From contig JAFZUW010000074.1 in assembly GCA_017618195.1 (NCBI GenBank), positions 62,001-126,000 on the forward strand: a stretch of 64,000 nt of DNA, given 5' to 3'. This DNA is from Lachnospiraceae bacterium (lineage in GTDB: Bacteria; Bacillota; Clostridia; Lachnospirales; Lachnospiraceae). Shown here in pieces: positions 32,894-40,023 of this stretch. Below the pieces are notes generated by a model. It saw only the letters and a program-made list of their open reading frames with translations. It had not been told where the DNA came from and did not search any database. The position numbers and the translations under genes were made by a program. The stretch's first letter is position 1. Each line of letters begins with the position of its first letter.

Positions 32894-34513
32894 TTATTTT
32901 AAATCTTCCCCCAGATTTCGCGTATACAAAAACTCGATTTCATCGCCCGGAGCAACTTCCGCCTGACCGCATCCGACCGGCATGATTTCCCCGTTCACCC
33001 GGTAAATCCAGCCCGACATGCTTCCGTATGCAAATTCATACAGTCCGGCGATTCCTTTTACATAGACGGACCCTCCGCTTCCCGTATAATCCATTTGGAT
33101 CCGGTATTCCCTGGCCGCCTGATTCAATACGTCAAAGGCAGTGTCTCCCTGCCCGATTTTCACTTTCGTGACCGGAAGAATCACCGCATCGTCCGGTGCC
33201 CCCTGCTCTCCCGCGATCGTGTCGCAGCGGATGGTCAGGGTTACCTCGCCGATTGCGTCCTTCTTTCCGTCCCCCGTATAGTGCCGGTCCACGCTTTCGA
33301 TGCGCGTGCAGAACGTAAGAATGATCAGTCCTGCTGCCAATAAGGCCGGGCACAATACATTTTTCTTCGTAAGACGTTTCTTTCTCCACAGGATCAGAAG
33401 CGTCACAACAAGCAGCCCGAGTATCACGGCCGAAACGATAAACTGATACGGTGCAAAACGGCTGCCCGCTTTGTTCCCTTCCTTCACGGCTTCGGACGGT
33501 GTTTCATCCCTTCCGTCCGTTCCGTCCGGTTTCGTTTCTTCGGTCTTCCCGGAGGGCTCGTCGTCCGTTCCCCAGACGCTGCTTCTTTCCGCCACGTAAA
33601 GAGGCGTCTGCCCCGCAAGCAGCCGCTTGTAGGACGTCAATGCGCACAATACCTCCGCCGACGTGATTCCTGCCGGTTCCGATCCTTCGGTATGGCAGAA
33701 GGCTCCGCTTTCGTTTCGGAACCGCTCCAGCGTCGTCATCGGATTGTTTCCGTTCTTTTGGAACCTCGGATCCGTCATCGGATCGATCCCCAGGGAACAC
33801 AGGGCGATAATTACCTGGCTCGCGCTCTCACAGTTGTCCGAACCGAAGCTTTTGTATCCGCCGTTTTCAAGCTGGCAGGCGGAAAGAAACGAAACGCCTC
33901 TGTCCGCCGCTTCCTTCACCTCGGATATACCGCAGTACGGAGCAAGCGCTTCCAGAACCATCGACGTGACGTCCGGATCCCCGAAGTCGCCTTTGAGGCT
34001 CCATCCGCCGTCCTCACACTGCTTCCCGAGCAGTTCCGACGGTTCCGCATACGGAGTTCCGGTAAGCGTGCCGAAATGCAGTCCGTACACGAGGCTCATC
34101 AGATCTCCGGAAACGACGTGTTCTTTAATCGCCGCCTCGTCGACCTGCTTTCCGAGAAGCCACGCGGTCATCATCCGGTTCAGCCACGTTGCGTTTGCGA
34201 CCTTGGTCTGTTCCGTCGGGATGCGCTCCCGGTATTGTTTTGCAAAACTTGTGAAGTCGTATTTTCCGCCCTGATACAGTGCCAGAAAATACCACTCTAA
34301 CGGATGTTTCCCGAGCTGTCCGGCATCCTGATCAAGCCATGCCTGAACCGAGTCCGTGCCCGCAGAAGAACAGAGGCAGGAAAGGATTCCTTCCTCATAG
34401 CGTTCGGCCGGCCCGGATGACGATTCCGCCCGCACCGCCGGAATTGCAAGCAGTGCGAGCAGGATTGCCAGTATACCGGAACGGATTCGTTTTCTCCATC
34501 CGTTCTGTTTCAT
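32894..34513 (-). CDS. Transcobalamin-like membrane protein (alpha/alpha barrel plus DUF4430)
   Basis: 539 residues. Signal peptide (about 1-29), then an alpha/alpha-barrel region (about 36-325) of the prenyltransferase/squalene-cyclase type with repeats such as CEDGGWSLKGDFGDPDVTSM and ACQLENGGYKSFGSDNCESA. An acidic linker leads to two membrane helices (about 353-376 and 388-406). The C-terminal part (about 415-539) is a DUF4430 domain: IGQGDTAFDVLNQAAREY and GWIYRVNGEIMPVGCGQAEV. Animal transcobalamin and intrinsic factor combine the same two folds to enclose B12. By topology both domains lie outside the cell. It is the last gene of the riboswitch-controlled ecf operon, nine bases after the previous gene. 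Corrinoid binding is inferred from architecture and context. Confidence 0.82.
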   Translation of the reverse strand: MKQNGWRKRIRSGILAILLALLAIPAVRAESSSGPAERYEEGILSCLCSSAGTDSVQAWLDQDAGQLGKHPLEWYFLALYQGGKYDFTSFAKQYRERIPTEQTKVANATWLNRMMTAWLLGKQVDEAAIKEHVVSGDLMSLVYGLHFGTLTGTPYAEPSELLGKQCEDGGWSLKGDFGDPDVTSMVLEALAPYCGISEVKEAADRGVSFLSACQLENGGYKSFGSDNCESASQVIIALCSLGIDPMTDPRFQKNGNNPMTTLERFRNESGAFCHTEGSEPAGITSAEVLCALTSYKRLLAGQTPLYVAERSSVWGTDDEPSGKTEETKPDGTDGRDETPSEAVKEGNKAGSRFAPYQFIVSAVILGLLVVTLLILWRKKRLTKKNVLCPALLAAGLIILTFCTRIESVDRHYTGDGKKDAIGEVTLTIRCDTIAGEQGAPDDAVILPVTKVKIGQGDTAFDVLNQAAREYRIQMDYTGSGGSVYVKGIAGLYEFAYGSMSGWIYRVNGEIMPVGCGQAEVAPGDEIEFLYTRNLGEDLK

Positions 34514-34522
34514 GTTTTGTTC

Positions 34523-35413
34523 CTACTGCTCTTTCTTTTTGCTGAGAACACAGAAAAGAATGATGGCGATCAAAACCAATCCGCAGATGATCCCGAGGAT
34601 GATCCAACTATTCCCGCTGCCTGATTTTTCATTGCTGTCAGCGGTCTTCTCCGGAGCCTGAGTAGGTGCCTCAGTGGGCTTCTCATCGGGCGTGGGAGCG
34701 ATCGTGGGAGCCTCGGTCGGAGCTGCAGCCTCAACGGTTGCCACACATACCGGAGGAACCATCGTAACGCCGTCCTTCTTCGCGCTGATCACATGCTCGC
34801 CTGCACCGGAAAGCGTAATCTCCGCAGTGCCGTCCGCGGCCGTAACAACGCCTGCATCCTTACCGTCAACAAGGATCGTTGCGCCTTCCACGGGGCTGTT
34901 CAGCTGGGAATAGTCCGCTGCGTAACCGGCTGCGGAAAGGGTAAGGGTAACCTTGTCGCCGTCCTTGCCGGAAACGGTATTCTTGTCAAAGAAGCAATAG
35001 GTATCGGACCAAGCAACAAGGTCTCTGTAAATGTAAGCGTAAACATAGTCGCCGTCCTTAACCGGATCGCCGAGACCCATCGAAAATGCGTTGTTTACAA
35101 GGTAGCCGTATCCGGTACCGTTGTCATATCCCCACAGCAGGTCAAGCTGCAGGCCGTACGCGCCTACGGAGGTCTTGATACCCTTTTCGGCGCCGCCTTC
35201 GAAATATGCCTCATGAGCACATACGAGTGCATCGCCTACCGTAAGGGCTCCGTCGCCGTCAACGTCCGTAACGGTTACGGGCTTCTCTACGAGAACTGCT
35301 TCGCCGTTGTTGTCGGCAATCGACACAAACACTTTGGTGTCGTCCGCCAAAGCAACGCTGCTCAATCCGAGGAGCATTGCGAGGGACAATACAAGGATCA
35401 TTAGTTTTTTCAT
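34523..35413 (-). CDS. Exported membrane-anchored protein with DUF4430-like domain
   Basis: 296 residues. Signal peptide ending near LSSVALA; a first domain (about 30-150) with a calcium-loop-like DVDGDGALTVGDAL and GYGYLVNNAFSMGLGDPVKD followed by DGDYVYAYIYRD, which resembles the DUF4430/transcobalamin beta domain; then a PEGA-like beta segment (ATILVDGKDAGVVT); a Pro/Thr/Ala stalk; and a C-terminal membrane helix with a KKKEQ tail. It is probably a surface-exposed ligand-binding protein anchored next to the transporter. Its ATG overlaps the stop of the S component gene (ATGA). Confidence 0.75.
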   Translation of the reverse strand: MKKLMILVLSLAMLLGLSSVALADDTKVFVSIADNNGEAVLVEKPVTVTDVDGDGALTVGDALVCAHEAYFEGGAEKGIKTSVGAYGLQLDLLWGYDNGTGYGYLVNNAFSMGLGDPVKDGDYVYAYIYRDLVAWSDTYCFFDKNTVSGKDGDKVTLTLSAAGYAADYSQLNSPVEGATILVDGKDAGVVTAADGTAEITLSGAGEHVISAKKDGVTMVPPVCVATVEAAAPTEAPTIAPTPDEKPTEAPTQAPEKTADSNEKSGSGNSWIILGIICGLVLIAIILFCVLSKKKEQ

Positions 35414-36090
35414 TGGAATAGTCCTTCCTTCTTTTTTATTCTTTCCAACTTCTTCCCTACCGGTCCGGTAAGGAGAAGGAGAAACACGACATTAGAGACG
35501 GCGTACTCCGCCGTCAGCGGCAGCGCGGCCGCAATCGCCGCGGCATACCCTTTGAGGACAAATGTGCCCTCCGCCCATAAAACCGTCCAGACGTCCATCG
35601 TGACGGAGTATCCGACTCCGGCAAGCGCGCCGAAGACACACAGCGCGATCCGGTTCTTCTTAAGAGGCTTTCGAAGAAGCCCCGCGAGCAGTCCGATAAT
35701 ACCCCAGGCAAACATCTGAAACGGCGTCCACGGTCCGTGTCCGAAATAGAAATTGGACACTGCGGCCGACAGCGATCCGACCACAAATCCGGCTTCCCCG
35801 CCGAAGCTTAAGGCCACGATGATCGTCACCGCCGTTACCGGTTTGAAACCCGGGATCGCGGCAAATACGATGCGGCCGATTACCGACAGCGCAATCAATA
35901 CCGCAAGCACCATCAGTTCCTTGGCCGTACTGTCGCGCCTCTCAAACGCGTAGAGAAGCGGAATGCACGAAAGCACCGCGACAAGAAGCGCAAGCCATGC
36001 GTAAAAGCGGTCGCGAAATACCAAAGCACCGCCGATCACAAGCGCCGGGATCAGAACCGCCAACAGAATAATCGTAATTGCTTTCTTCAT
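35410..36090 (-). CDS. ECF transporter S component, probably for cobalamin or a precursor
   Basis: 226 residues from the ATG at 36090, whose ATGA overlaps the ecfA stop. Six hydrophobic segments; VLIALSVIGRIVFAAIPGFKPVTAVTII and SFGGEAGFVVGSLSAAVSNF fit the CblT/CbrT-type S components. It would bind the vitamin in the membrane and hand it to the EcfT/EcfA energising module. Specificity for B12 is inferred from the riboswitch upstream of the operon and the transcobalamin-like protein downstream. Confidence 0.85.
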   Translation of the reverse strand: MKKAITIILLAVLIPALVIGGALVFRDRFYAWLALLVAVLSCIPLLYAFERRDSTAKELMVLAVLIALSVIGRIVFAAIPGFKPVTAVTIIVALSFGGEAGFVVGSLSAAVSNFYFGHGPWTPFQMFAWGIIGLLAGLLRKPLKKNRIALCVFGALAGVGYSVTMDVWTVLWAEGTFVLKGYAAAIAAALPLTAEYAVSNVVFLLLLTGPVGKKLERIKKKEGLFQ

Positions 36091-37757
36091 GACGTGACCC
36101 GTCCGTTTCCGAGGCAAAGCTTTGCAACTTCTTCACAGGTGATTGGGTTGTCATAATAGCCTCTTGCGATCCGGCATGCTGCCGTCGTATAAAACGCGTT
36201 GTTTGAAAACACTTCACGGACCGTTCCGGAAACCGCAACGTCTCCGTCGAAGAAAAGCCCCGCTCGGTCCGCGCATTCCGCGGCAAATTCGGCGTCATGC
36301 GTTACCGTAAGGATCGTCGTTCCTTCCGCCTTCACGGCGCTTAAGATGCGCTTCAGTTCCGTTTTATACGCGGCATCAAGACCTTTGGTCGGTTCATCCA
36401 AAAGAAGCAGTCTCGGACGTAGCAGAAGCACTTTTCCGAGCGCCGCCTTCTGCTGCTCTCCGCCGCTTAAGTCATACGGATGTCTCGCCTGAAGGCCGGC
36501 GGTTCCGAGCTTTGAAGACATCTCTTCGATCGCGCGGTTCCGCTCCGCTCCCGTAATTCCCATTGTCTTGCAGGCAAGTTCCCAGTCTTCCCGCACCGTG
36601 TCACATACGAATACGGCCTTCGGATCCTGCGGAAGCATCGCCGTAACCCCGCGGTTACGCTCTCCGTCCCGGTAGGAGCGGATCGGCTGACCGAACAGCC
36701 GTACCGAACCGGCATAGGCGCGGAGCACGCCGCAGATTACGGAAAGCAGTGTCGTTTTGCCGCTGCCGTTTCCGCCGAGCAGGCAGTAGTGTTCGCCCTC
36801 GTATACCGTCAATGACGTATCGCGAAGCACGTCTGTTCCTTTCTTTCCGTATCGGAACCAGGCCTCGCGGATTTCAACCGCAGGCTTATCGGAAGTTATA
36901 CTCTCCTCCGTTTCCACCGTACGGATTTCGTTTCCGTAACGCTTTACCATGCGCTGTCCTTCCGCTACCGAAAGCGGCGCCGGTCCGCTCTCTTTGAGCA
37001 TCCCGTACAGTCTGACCGAGGCAGGAAGCCCTGCTGCCATGCCTTGGTTCTTCTCATTCAGATATCGTCCGATTCCGTCGGCTGGACCGTCGTACGAAAC
37101 CGCTCCTTCTTCTAAAAACAGCACGCGGTCTGCCATCGGCAGAATCTCCTCGAGCCGGTGTTCCGCGATCAGAACGGTCACGCCGAGTTCGCGGTGAAGC
37201 CGTCCGATCATCGCGAAGAAATCGCCTGCCGCGATCGGATCAAGCTGCGCCGTCGGCTCATCTAAGAGCAGCACGCGCGGCTCAAGCGTCATTACGGAAG
37301 CAAGGTTTAAAAGCTGCTTCTGACCGCCCGATAGCTGTTCGGTCTTTTTATGAAACCACGCCTCAATCCCGAAATAGGCAACCATTTCCGCGACCCTTGA
37401 GCGGATCGTCTCCTGCTTCATTCCGAGATTCTCGGGGGCAAATGCCAGTTCCTGCCATACGGCATCCATTACGATCTGGCTGTCCGGATCCTGCGCGAGA
37501 TACCCGATCTGCGAGCATGACACGCGCGGTTCCGTTTCCTCGTAGCATTTGCCGAGATAACGGCGTTCACCCGAAAGCTGCCCGAACGGCGCGATTTCCT
37601 TTTTGAGAAGCTTTAACAGCGTGGACTTCCCGCATCCCGAAGGACCGCACACGATCGTAAAACTGCCTTCCGAAAGCGCAAAGGAAACGTTCTTAAGCGC
37701 CGGCTTCTCTCCGTCCGGATATGTAAACGTCAGATTTTCGACCTGTAATAATCCCAT
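36087..37757 (-). CDS. ecfA: ECF transporter ATPase with two fused ABC domains
   Basis: 556 residues with two nucleotide-binding domains. Domain 1: Walker A CGPSGCGKSTLLKLL, signature EQLSGGQKQLLNLA, Walker B VLLLDEPTAQLD. Domain 2: LGGNGSGKTTLLSVI, YDLSGGEQQKAALGK, LLLLDEPTKGLD. It replaces the EcfA1/EcfA2 pair. It drives uptake by the EcfT/S module. Its start lies 28 bases inside the end of ecfT, in another frame, and it overlaps the S gene by ATGA. Confidence 0.94.
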   Translation of the reverse strand: MGLLQVENLTFTYPDGEKPALKNVSFALSEGSFTIVCGPSGCGKSTLLKLLKKEIAPFGQLSGERRYLGKCYEETEPRVSCSQIGYLAQDPDSQIVMDAVWQELAFAPENLGMKQETIRSRVAEMVAYFGIEAWFHKKTEQLSGGQKQLLNLASVMTLEPRVLLLDEPTAQLDPIAAGDFFAMIGRLHRELGVTVLIAEHRLEEILPMADRVLFLEEGAVSYDGPADGIGRYLNEKNQGMAAGLPASVRLYGMLKESGPAPLSVAEGQRMVKRYGNEIRTVETEESITSDKPAVEIREAWFRYGKKGTDVLRDTSLTVYEGEHYCLLGGNGSGKTTLLSVICGVLRAYAGSVRLFGQPIRSYRDGERNRGVTAMLPQDPKAVFVCDTVREDWELACKTMGITGAERNRAIEEMSSKLGTAGLQARHPYDLSGGEQQKAALGKVLLLRPRLLLLDEPTKGLDAAYKTELKRILSAVKAEGTTILTVTHDAEFAAECADRAGLFFDGDVAVSGTVREVFSNNAFYTTAACRIARGYYDNPITCEEVAKLCLGNGRVTS

Positions 37758-38605
37758 TGTATCCGATTCTTACCTTCCGTGAATGCCGCTGCCGTTACAA
37801 GCAGACAGTACAATATGAGTCCGAACATCGTCACCGGGCCGCTCTCCATCGAAAGCGCCGGATAGAATTGAAACGCCAGCTTACCGGATGCCAGAATGCC
37901 GATCAGCACCGCATCGGCCGCGAGTATCAGGCTGAGCCGCAAGGCGTCCGCTTTCCGGAAGCGGTACGGCGTGTAGGTCGTTCTTCCTTTCAGCCCGTAG
38001 CCCCGTGCCTTCATGGACGAACTGACCGCCGTCGCGTGATCAAGCGACCATGTTACGATCATCGAGAACACCTTTGCTCCGCCGGTTATCCGGTCGGCCA
38101 TCTCGCCGTTTCCGTAAAGCCCGAGTTCCTTCTGTGTGTCGCGCATCTGTGAGGCGCGGTTTCGAAGGAGCGGCACGAGCCGCAGCGAAGAAGACAGTAA
38201 GAGCGCCGTCTTCGGGAATGACCGTCCGAGAAGCGCGAGCAGTTTTTCGCTGCTTACCATTTGATTAAAGATCCTGCACCACAGCAGCACGGACAGGACG
38301 CACAAGGCATTCCGCACGCCGTAAAGGATCGATTCAAGCGTTATTGCATGACCGTTTAAAAAGAACAGTTCCGTCTGCCCCCGATGCGAAAAGAGCGGGT
38401 TGACCGCGACGACCAGAAGGAACAGTCCGGAAAGCCACAGTACCGTTCTTACCTTGGGCGGTTCGGGCTCGGTCAGGATCAGAAAAAGTACCGCACCGGA
38501 AAATGCCGCGATATGCAGCACCGGGTTCAGCGAAAACATGGCCGGTATCGTCACCGAAAGAACATACGCGACAAGCACTGCGGGATGTATCCGTTCGTAT
38601 GCCAT
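37730..38605 (-). CDS. ecfT: ECF transporter transmembrane subunit
   Basis: 291 residues with about six membrane helices. The coupling motifs show as SSSLRLVPLLRNRA and AVSSSMKARGYGLKGRT (Ala-Arg-Gly box). EcfT links the ATPase to the S component. GGAGG stands seven bases before the ATG. It is the first gene after the cobalamin riboswitch, so the whole operon should be switched off when B12 is plentiful. Confidence 0.92.
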   Translation of the reverse strand: MAYERIHPAVLVAYVLSVTIPAMFSLNPVLHIAAFSGAVLFLILTEPEPPKVRTVLWLSGLFLLVVAVNPLFSHRGQTELFFLNGHAITLESILYGVRNALCVLSVLLWCRIFNQMVSSEKLLALLGRSFPKTALLLSSSLRLVPLLRNRASQMRDTQKELGLYGNGEMADRITGGAKVFSMIVTWSLDHATAVSSSMKARGYGLKGRTTYTPYRFRKADALRLSLILAADAVLIGILASGKLAFQFYPALSMESGPVTMFGLILYCLLVTAAAFTEGKNRIQWDYYRSKI

Positions 38606-38710
38606 CTGCGTTCCTCCTTTCGCCTTTCTGATAAGCGGTCACTGCCTGATTTTGACATGGCCCGGCTTCGGGCGGAAGCCGGCGTATTTCCCTGCCCGTT
38701 TAACATATAA

Positions 38711-38739
38711 AAAGCCCCTCACCTTTTCGTGAGGGGCAA
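38711..38739 (-). terminator. Expression-platform terminator of the cobalamin riboswitch
   Basis: Minus strand GCCCCTCAC / GTGAGGGGC perfect stem (38716-38739) with loop GAAAAG, then TTTTT. It lies between the aptamer and ecfT and can stop transcription when the vitamin is bound. Confidence 0.88.
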
Positions 38740-38835
38740 CTGATAACCGCATGAAACAAAGCCCTGGGCCATCTTAAGGATGTGCACCAAAGCCTTTCCG
38801 GCGATATATCGGCTGCACTCTCCCATTGCCCAAGC

Positions 38836-39010
38836 GTGATTACCTGAAAAGATACGGCAGGTCTCCTGACTTATGATATAGCAGTCCTGCGTAAAGGCGC
38901 GCCTTCTCGGGAATGACCCCAATGGCATCCGCGTCTTCTTCGTCAAATACAGTAATGGCGGTTGTTCCGGATTCGAACCGGATTCCCTATTAATCTACTC
39001 ATCTTCACAA
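38836..39010 (-). ncRNA. Cobalamin (B12) riboswitch aptamer
   Basis: Minus-strand sequence has the family landmarks in order: TAATAGGGAATCCGG with the CCGGAACAACCGCC segment, TACTGTATTTGACG, GCCATTGGGG, CGAGAAGGCGCGCC and the B12 box AGTCAGGAGACCTGCC. The first and last strands (GATTAA... and ...GGTAATC) pair as P1. It precedes the terminator at 38711-38739 and the ecf operon. Confidence 0.95.
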
Positions 39011-39120
39011 CTTTCAAACCGTATCTTCCATATCGATATATGATTTGTCAAAGAGTATAACATAACTCTTCCGTTATTACAATCCATTTTCACGGGCAGG
39101 AGGCGCTGCAACGCCGGCCT

Positions 39121-39213
39121 TTTGCGGGGGTCAGAGTGCGCCTCCGGCGTTTGCGGGGGTCAGCACACGGTGCCTCCGGCGTTTGCGGGGGGCAGTACAC
39201 GGTGCCTCCGGCG
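39121..39213. repeat. Three tandem repeats of 29-32 bp
   Basis: Units TTTGCGGGGGTCAG...GCCTCCGGCG at 39121-39149, 39150-39181 and 39182-39213; the last two are nearly identical, the first lacks three bases. They lie in the gap between the riboswitch and the P-loop gene. Apart from these, 39011-39120 holds nothing I can recognise. Confidence 0.75.
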
Positions 39214-39247
39214 TTTAAGATATGTACCCGTATCCCGGAACACAGGA

Positions 39248-39285: not shown

Positions 39286-40023
39286 TTATTTTGTTCTCCC
39301 GGCTGCTTTCTTCGGCTTTTCCGAAGCGGTTTTCGCCTTCGGCTCCTTGGCCGCTTTCTTCGGTTCCGCCTTTTCGGGCTTGGCCGTCTTCTTCGGTTCC
39401 GTCTTTACGGACTTGGCCGTTTTCTTTGTTTCCCCGGCTTCCGCCTTCGCTGCCTTCGCCTTCCCGGCGGGCTCAGCGGATCCCTTCGCAGCTTTCTTCG
39501 GCTCGGCCTTCGCATTTTCCCTGTCCGCTTTCACAGCCGCGTCGATATGTCTGCAGATTTCCTTGCAAACCTGATCGGGCGTCTTGCCGTCCGTTTTGAT
39601 GACGGTCTCGCCCGGATACGGCGGCAGCTGCAGCCAGAAGAACGACACCGTCTTCTTCTCGCCGGAAGCGTCCTTGCGCATCTTCAGCGTATCTTCGGAG
39701 CACACGAGCTGGAAGCTCAGGATATCATAATCGTCGGCCTTGATCGAACGGAGTATGTTCTCTCTCGCATCCGGATCGCTCATCACGACGGAGGAAAATA
39801 CGACATATTCAAATCCGGAATTCAGATAGGTGGAAATCAGAAACGCCATGTTCTTATCGCCGTTTCTGGAACGGTTGTCCTCGATCGAATACGGGTTTAC
39901 GTACCAGCACCAGTCGCCGTTACAGAATGCGCTGTTTACATAGTGTTCGAAGATCTTCTGTCCGACTGTGGATTTGCCGACACACGGCCCTCCGCTTAAG
40001 ATGATCAGTTTCTTTGATGCCAT
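39286..40023 (-). CDS. P-loop kinase-like protein with histone-H1-like tail
   Basis: 245 residues. The first 160 form a small P-loop NTPase: LIILSGGPCVGKSTVGQKIF (Walker A GGPCVGKST), then YVVFSSVVMSDPDARENIL (Walker B-like strand) and a LQLVC-type strand; it looks like an adenylate- or shikimate-kinase-type fold with unknown substrate. The last 80 residues are made of Lys, Ala, Glu, Pro and Thr (KKAAKGSAEP, KTAKSVKTEPKKTAKPEK), like eukaryotic H1 and bacterial H1-like proteins, and may bind DNA or RNA. It follows the GH3 gene divergently only in distance; same strand, no clear operon. Confidence 0.75.
   Translation of the reverse strand: MASKKLIILSGGPCVGKSTVGQKIFEHYVNSAFCNGDWCWYVNPYSIEDNRSRNGDKNMAFLISTYLNSGFEYVVFSSVVMSDPDARENILRSIKADDYDILSFQLVCSEDTLKMRKDASGEKKTVSFFWLQLPPYPGETVIKTDGKTPDQVCKEICRHIDAAVKADRENAKAEPKKAAKGSAEPAGKAKAAKAEAGETKKTAKSVKTEPKKTAKPEKAEPKKAAKEPKAKTASEKPKKAAGRTK

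Follow-up and report, generated by a model that had tools for sequence, protein, structure and literature searches.

A riboswitch-led operon of a Lachnospiraceae bacterium pairing an ECF-CbrT-type importer with transcobalamin-like proteins: a probable corrinoid acquisition system

Introduction

Vitamin B12 (cobalamin) helps to decide growth in gut and rumen communities, and its capture outside the membrane by Gram-positive bacteria is an open matter; to our knowledge, energy-coupling factor (ECF) transporters have been described without an extracellular binding protein. The closest described importer is ECF-CbrT from Lactobacillus delbrueckii (PDB 6fnp), in which, according to PMC5997447, CbrT uses the shared general ECF module, imports B12 and cobinamide and binds B12 at about 9 nM, its gene standing in the order nrdJ-cbrS-cbrT-pduO. 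In Bacteroides, the surface B12-binding proteins BtuG and BtuH do by analogy the job considered here, capturing B12 for a transporter, although they belong to the Gram-negative outer membrane and are likened by job, not by fold (PMC6143338 and PMC8941943). A C-terminal DUF4430 has been noted in the B12 carriers of vertebrates (PMC4350170).

The present analysis concerns a window of 64,000 nucleotides from Lachnospiraceae bacterium (assembly GCA_017618195.1, contig JAFZUW010000074.1, positions 62,001 to 126,000), whose minus strand carries, in the region 32894..39010, a cobalamin riboswitch and a terminator-like hairpin. Five genes follow at close spacing: ecfT, ecfA with two ATPase domains, the gene of an S component, and those of two exported membrane proteins, here termed P2 and P1. 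This locus is quite probably an operon for the acquisition of B12 or related corrinoids, in which P1 and P2 would capture corrinoids at the cell surface and feed them to an ECF-CbrT importer, with ligand binding, a clamp, a hand-over, and a part for P2 as its presumed steps. The initial annotation, made from the sequence alone, had reached a similar view; it was right in its parts, and the function that it proposed is the most likely one. Coordinates of operon features refer to the minus strand of the window.

The Riboswitch and the ECF Transporter

Riboswitches of the cobalamin class allow transcription to pass the terminator when cobalamin is low. The RF00174 match of the window (38839..39038) spans the full covariance model (positions 1-189) and exceeds the Rfam gathering cut-off, with 93.1 bits against 31.5 (E 8e-22); the terminator-like hairpin of the leader (38714..38737) has a 9-pair stem with 7 G-C pairs and a T5 tail. 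These elements and the genes' own matches in Pfam and NCBIfam bear out the order first proposed, in which riboswitch and terminator precede the three transporter genes (ecfT, the two-domain ecfA, the S component) and the two genes for exported membrane proteins.

The transmembrane energy-coupling subunit EcfT (37730..38605) is recognized by PF02361 (3.7e-8), with TIGR02454 under its cut-off, and the fused two-domain EcfA ATPase (36087..37757) by PF00005 over two stretches and by TIGR04520 above its cut-off. Among proteins of solved structure, only CbrT (6fnp_A) is clearly related to the S component (35410..36093), scoring 1.5e-9 with the single sequence and 7e-15 with profile A3 (14 rows), the next chain reaching 0.018 and 0.0075, respectively. 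EcfT, both ATPase domains, and the S component are encoded together, and the transporter is predicted to be a dedicated importer of the ECF-CbrT type whose B12 specificity would come from the S component nearest CbrT; the wide margin by which CbrT is the closest relative upholds the earlier designation as an ECF importer for B12. As in L. delbrueckii, an ECF module is combined with an S component matching CbrT; the difference is that in the window ecfT, the fused ecfA, and the S component share one riboswitch-led operon with two exported beta-domain proteins.

The host draft genome (2.75 Mb, 82 contigs) holds four PF12822-type S components, the operon's own included, and a metH-type gene, whereas CbiC, the only B12 synthesis gene searched for, had no match there. 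This combination fits a B12 user dependent on uptake, although a single gene missing from a draft genome is no proof. Matches of the metH type occur in 22/22 genomes of the genus, none above the full-length cut-off.

The Transcobalamin-Like Protein P1 and the Beta-Domain Protein P2

P1 (32894..34513) consists of a signal peptide, an alpha/alpha barrel (residues 35-302; 33608..34411), a membrane hairpin (residues 355-402; 33308..33451), and a DUF4430 (beta) domain (residues 421-531; 32921..33253). The last is identified by PF14478 (E 2.8e-18, 66.6 bits against a Pfam cut-off of 23.8) and superposes on the transcobalamin beta domain 5no0 at TMt 0.76, while the barrel appears in the AlphaFold2 (AF2) model of P1 (pLDDT 82.4, pTM 0.55) and in structure searches. 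In a Foldseek search of P1 against the PDB, rows 1-15 are all haptocorrin, transcobalamin, or intrinsic factor (E 7.8e-7 to 2.3e-5), aligned over 481-562 columns at 10-13% identity, so that predicted structure, Foldseek, and PF14478 agree with the original proposal that P1 joins the two folds of animal transcobalamin. The two membrane helices proposed between the domains were likewise found, both in the model and in the hydropathy of relatives, and they flank a basic loop, RKKRLTKK, that relatives keep. The conserved residues of P1 include DGG 168-170, DVT 181-183, N227/S230, SGW 500-502, and N507. Because this hairpin links the two domains, both should, in the modelled topology, be extracellular.

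Kinship with the animal carriers is drawn from the Foldseek search and from profile A8, built on 21 DUF4430 domains of bacteria; in the PDB this profile reaches 3u7z with E 2.3e-4, haptocorrin (4kki) with 6.6e-4, and intrinsic factor with 0.3. InterPro labels the domain transcobalamin-like. According to the model, P1 resembles transcobalamin, intrinsic factor, and haptocorrin in being a single exported chain with an alpha/alpha barrel and then a beta domain of the DUF4430 type, but it differs from them in being bacterial and membrane-tethered, with two membrane helices between the domains, and in its low identity; nor did a Pfam scan at E up to 0.1 match its alpha domain to PF01122, the eukaryotic cobalamin-binding family. 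Searched as a single sequence against the PDB, P1 gave no match at E up to 1. The protein 3u7z, RUMGNA_00854 of Ruminococcus gnavus, shares the DUF4430-type fold (TMt 0.68-0.77) but is the beta domain alone, a 101-residue chain titled putative metal-binding protein, and no paper was found under the name RUMGNA_00854 or under PF14478.

P2 (34523..35413) comprises a signal peptide, a transcobalamin-type beta domain (residues 24-132; 35018..35344), an immunoglobulin (Ig)-like domain, a proline/threonine-rich stalk, and a C-terminal membrane helix. Rows 1-5 of the VIA-align comparison of its modelled beta domain are transcobalamin and haptocorrin beta domains, and the best 50 rows of Foldseek contain phage capsid, Ig-like, and other chains and no B12 carrier. 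Relatives of P2 in other genera (L146 from 2169, 29% identity; L147 from 2310, 32%) stand about 600 bases or less downstream of cobalamin riboswitches.

Taken together, these components suggest a mechanism in which low cellular cobalamin would let the riboswitch permit read-through of the terminator and transcription of the operon, and EcfT, the fused EcfA, and the CbrT-like S component would assemble into a dedicated importer. The DUF4430 domain of P1 may then, as in transcobalamin, hold one face of the corrinoid with the barrel closing over it, and the arrangement of both domains on a membrane hairpin could permit P1 to clamp and release its ligand directly above the S component, with the stalked second beta domain of P2 possibly serving as collector or relay. 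For surface capture feeding an ECF importer, as the initial annotation had it, support comes from the folds, the topology, the relation to CbrT, and the riboswitch linkage, from which we infer binding and hand-over.

Riboswitch Linkage and Architecture of DUF4430 Loci

DUF4430 occurs in 63 of 116 related genomes and in 80 of 249 genomes of the phylum, and RF00174 in 77 and 231, respectively, one genome being common to both sets. Among the 116, 39 of the 92 DUF4430 matches (32 genomes) lie at most 10 kb downstream of RF00174 on the same strand, against about 0.17 expected by chance with genomes taken as 2.7 Mb, and in the phylum set at least 32 of the 124 listed DUF4430 rows are paired with RF00174, in 17 of 71 genomes. 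None of the 92 lies within 10 kb downstream of the 150 listed riboswitches for thiamine pyrophosphate (TPP), the only other vitamin whose riboswitches were tested, and the assignment of DUF4430 to another vitamin was rejected on that result; homologues are thus tied to cobalamin and not to TPP riboswitches, in line with the B12 link first put forward.

The architecture of these loci was followed in 60 stretches from 53 genomes, a selection from the DUF4430 and RF00174 rows. Within the genus of the window, 20 of 21 stretches hold DUF4430, accompanied in 16 of the 20 by matches for ecfT, ecfA, and the S component, and in 15 of the 20 a single reading frame encodes barrel and DUF4430, separated by hydrophobic helices. 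Outside the genus, DUF4430 is present in all 39 stretches and the barrel too in 23, in one frame in 12 and in different frames only in 11, so that the two are often separate proteins there; the three transporter matches occur in 18 of the 39, an RF00174 match in 19, and neither in 12, some of these on short contigs. A minimal set is seen in L087 (4795-6149), where a riboswitch, a 139-residue DUF4430 protein, and a CbrT-like S component (6fnp_A, 5.4e-12) follow in succession, and joining by a membrane hairpin is found mainly in the genus of the window and also in L077 and L086. The survey therefore points to the beta domain beside a CbrT-type importer as the recurring element, which the barrel often accompanies as a second half, the membrane hairpin being one mode of joining the two. 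In the host genome, P1 is the sole DUF4430 match found, and the search of genome contigs with P1 gave one relative, L002, in a Lachnospiraceae assembly from goat omasum, whose P1 is 67% identical.

A Variant Leader in the Genus

Nine members of the genus with the same five-gene operon (L033, L035, L037, L039, L040, L041, L043, L045, and L049) have a shorter conserved leader, related to the canonical one, upstream of ecfT, as at L041:10203-10299, with no RF00174 match and no B12 box at up to 3 mismatches; a search of 20 upstream stretches lacking RF00174, the nine among them, gave no cobalamin-clan match at E up to 1. In alignment A6 the motif shows GUUGU/GCAAC around a small hairpin and a T-loop-like hairpin, UCCGGUUCGAAUCCGGA, and a AGAUAUGG/CCGUAUCU-type stem encloses the whole. 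R1, a model built from the nine leaders, matches one place each in 20 of the 116 genomes, 3 in other genera and 17 in the genus, all of the latter before ecfT and the canonical riboswitch of the window (E 4.1e-13) among them. Across the genus, the variant form occurs in 11 of 22 genomes (including G003 and G014, also without RF00174), and RF00174 has matches in 10; among 397 genomes of the family, R1 matches 15, and 7 of 12 scanned loci reach the RF00174 cut-off.

With 20 rows, in an alignment fitted to the model, base pairing was modestly above shuffles, at 90.7% paired against 89.2 and with 5 double-change pairs against 2.4; the nine original rows gave 1 such pair against 0.4, which is not above shuffles. 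A pseudoknot that hairpin P3 might form with the sequence ahead of the gene had p<0.05 in 3 of the 9 leaders and was dropped. As far as sequence can tell, the variant motif probably corresponds to the 5' half of the lineage's cobalamin riboswitch, the B12-box half having been lost, and ligand sensing by it is putative.

In the riboswitch of the window itself (39025-38946, minus strand), the 5' strand GAUACGGU can pair either with ACUGUAUU, directly after the T-loop-like hairpin, or with GCCGUAUC (38858-38851), the canonical P1 stem strand; the two pairings, read from the sequence, are mutually exclusive.

Alternative Explanations

Several observations weigh against a corrinoid-capture function for P1 and P2. 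The barrel of P1 taken alone appears structurally nearer to terpene cyclases than to B12 carriers, with 0 B12 carriers among the 50 VIA-align rows listed for P1, and the profile of P1 relatives (A1) finds in the PDB terpene cyclases and weak others but no B12 carrier, transcobalamin included. P2, annotated as a DUF4430-like domain on a stalk, retains the modelled fold and the stalk, but its sequence fails as a Pfam DUF4430 member, with no PF14478 row and hhalign probabilities of 3% and 13.6%. Moreover, 53 of the 92 DUF4430 matches have no RF00174 within 10 kb upstream, including 12 of 22 in the genus of the window, and the variant leader, a candidate riboswitch that replaces the canonical one, is the chief finding at odds with a simple B12-riboswitch account. 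In another reading, P1 would be an exported alpha/alpha-barrel enzyme or a scaffold of the envelope whose co-regulation with B12 uptake has a different cause. This is very unlikely, since the squalene-hopene cyclase DVDDTA aligns with D-x-D-V-T in P1 and 16 aligned relatives, in which D-V-T is invariant, P1 has a signal peptide and a second domain of the B12-carrier type, and its operon encodes a B12 importer; with the catalytic DXDD motif broken, a class II terpene cyclase was rejected for the barrel.

P1 and P2 might instead take a ligand different from free B12, for example a corrinoid carried by a protein, or a precursor or analogue of B12, and strip or scavenge it for the importer. This is fairly improbable but the more serious alternative, because the operon evidence fits it equally, CbrT accepts cobinamide besides cobalamin (PMC5997447), and two beta domains with a long stalk suggest more than plain binding; no pointer to a protein partner was seen in the sequence, in which none was specifically searched for. 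Least probable of all is an importer for cobalt or another vitamin, which the Pfam labels of ecfT (CbiQ) and of the S component (PF07155, a riboflavin S-component family) might suggest, whereas the S component is by far nearest CbrT, a cobalamin riboswitch lies upstream, and neither CbiM nor CbiN is among the Pfam and NCBIfam matches listed for the five genes. Corrinoid capture by P1 and P2 for an ECF-CbrT importer thus remains the favored explanation.

Novelty and Implications

What appears new is that transcobalamin-like proteins of the cell surface are paired with an ECF-CbrT importer. No paper describing such bacterial proteins was found in a search that was thin on subscription journals, so an earlier description is possible, and pieces of the gene neighbourhood are already on record, namely cbrS beside cbrT in L. 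delbrueckii and a DUF4430 gene adjoining rtpR in L. rhamnosus (PMC9963975). If P1 and P2 bind corrinoids, DUF4430 would gain a function, ECF transporters a capture step, and the animal B12 carriers a testable origin. A wider hypothesis, to which we give slightly less than an even chance, is that DUF4430 is a general corrinoid-binding domain in these bacteria, that barrel and DUF4430 proteins, whether split into secreted chains encoded side by side, fused, or membrane-hinged, are bacterial transcobalamins loading ECF-CbrT importers, and that a bacterial pair of this kind is the ancestor of the animal carriers or has a common ancestor with them.

Other Features of the Window

Promoter-like hexamers, TTGTAA-17-TATACT with TG preceding the second (39054..39082), were picked up by a consensus scan with 9/12 matches, a signal weak taken alone, since shuffled sequence would give 0.6 where 1 was observed. 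Between this region and the upstream gene, at 39140-39218, GCCTCCGGCGTTTGCGGGGG is directly repeated in two copies and the start of a third. The gene immediately upstream of the riboswitch (39286-40023, minus strand) has matches of the P-loop type, all of them weak, and a long tail rich in Lys, Ala, and Pro, and in L043 a similar tail terminates right ahead of the variant leader. Elsewhere in the window, at 26256-25876 on the minus strand, there is a match to RF01766, the cspA thermoregulator, with 88.9 bits.

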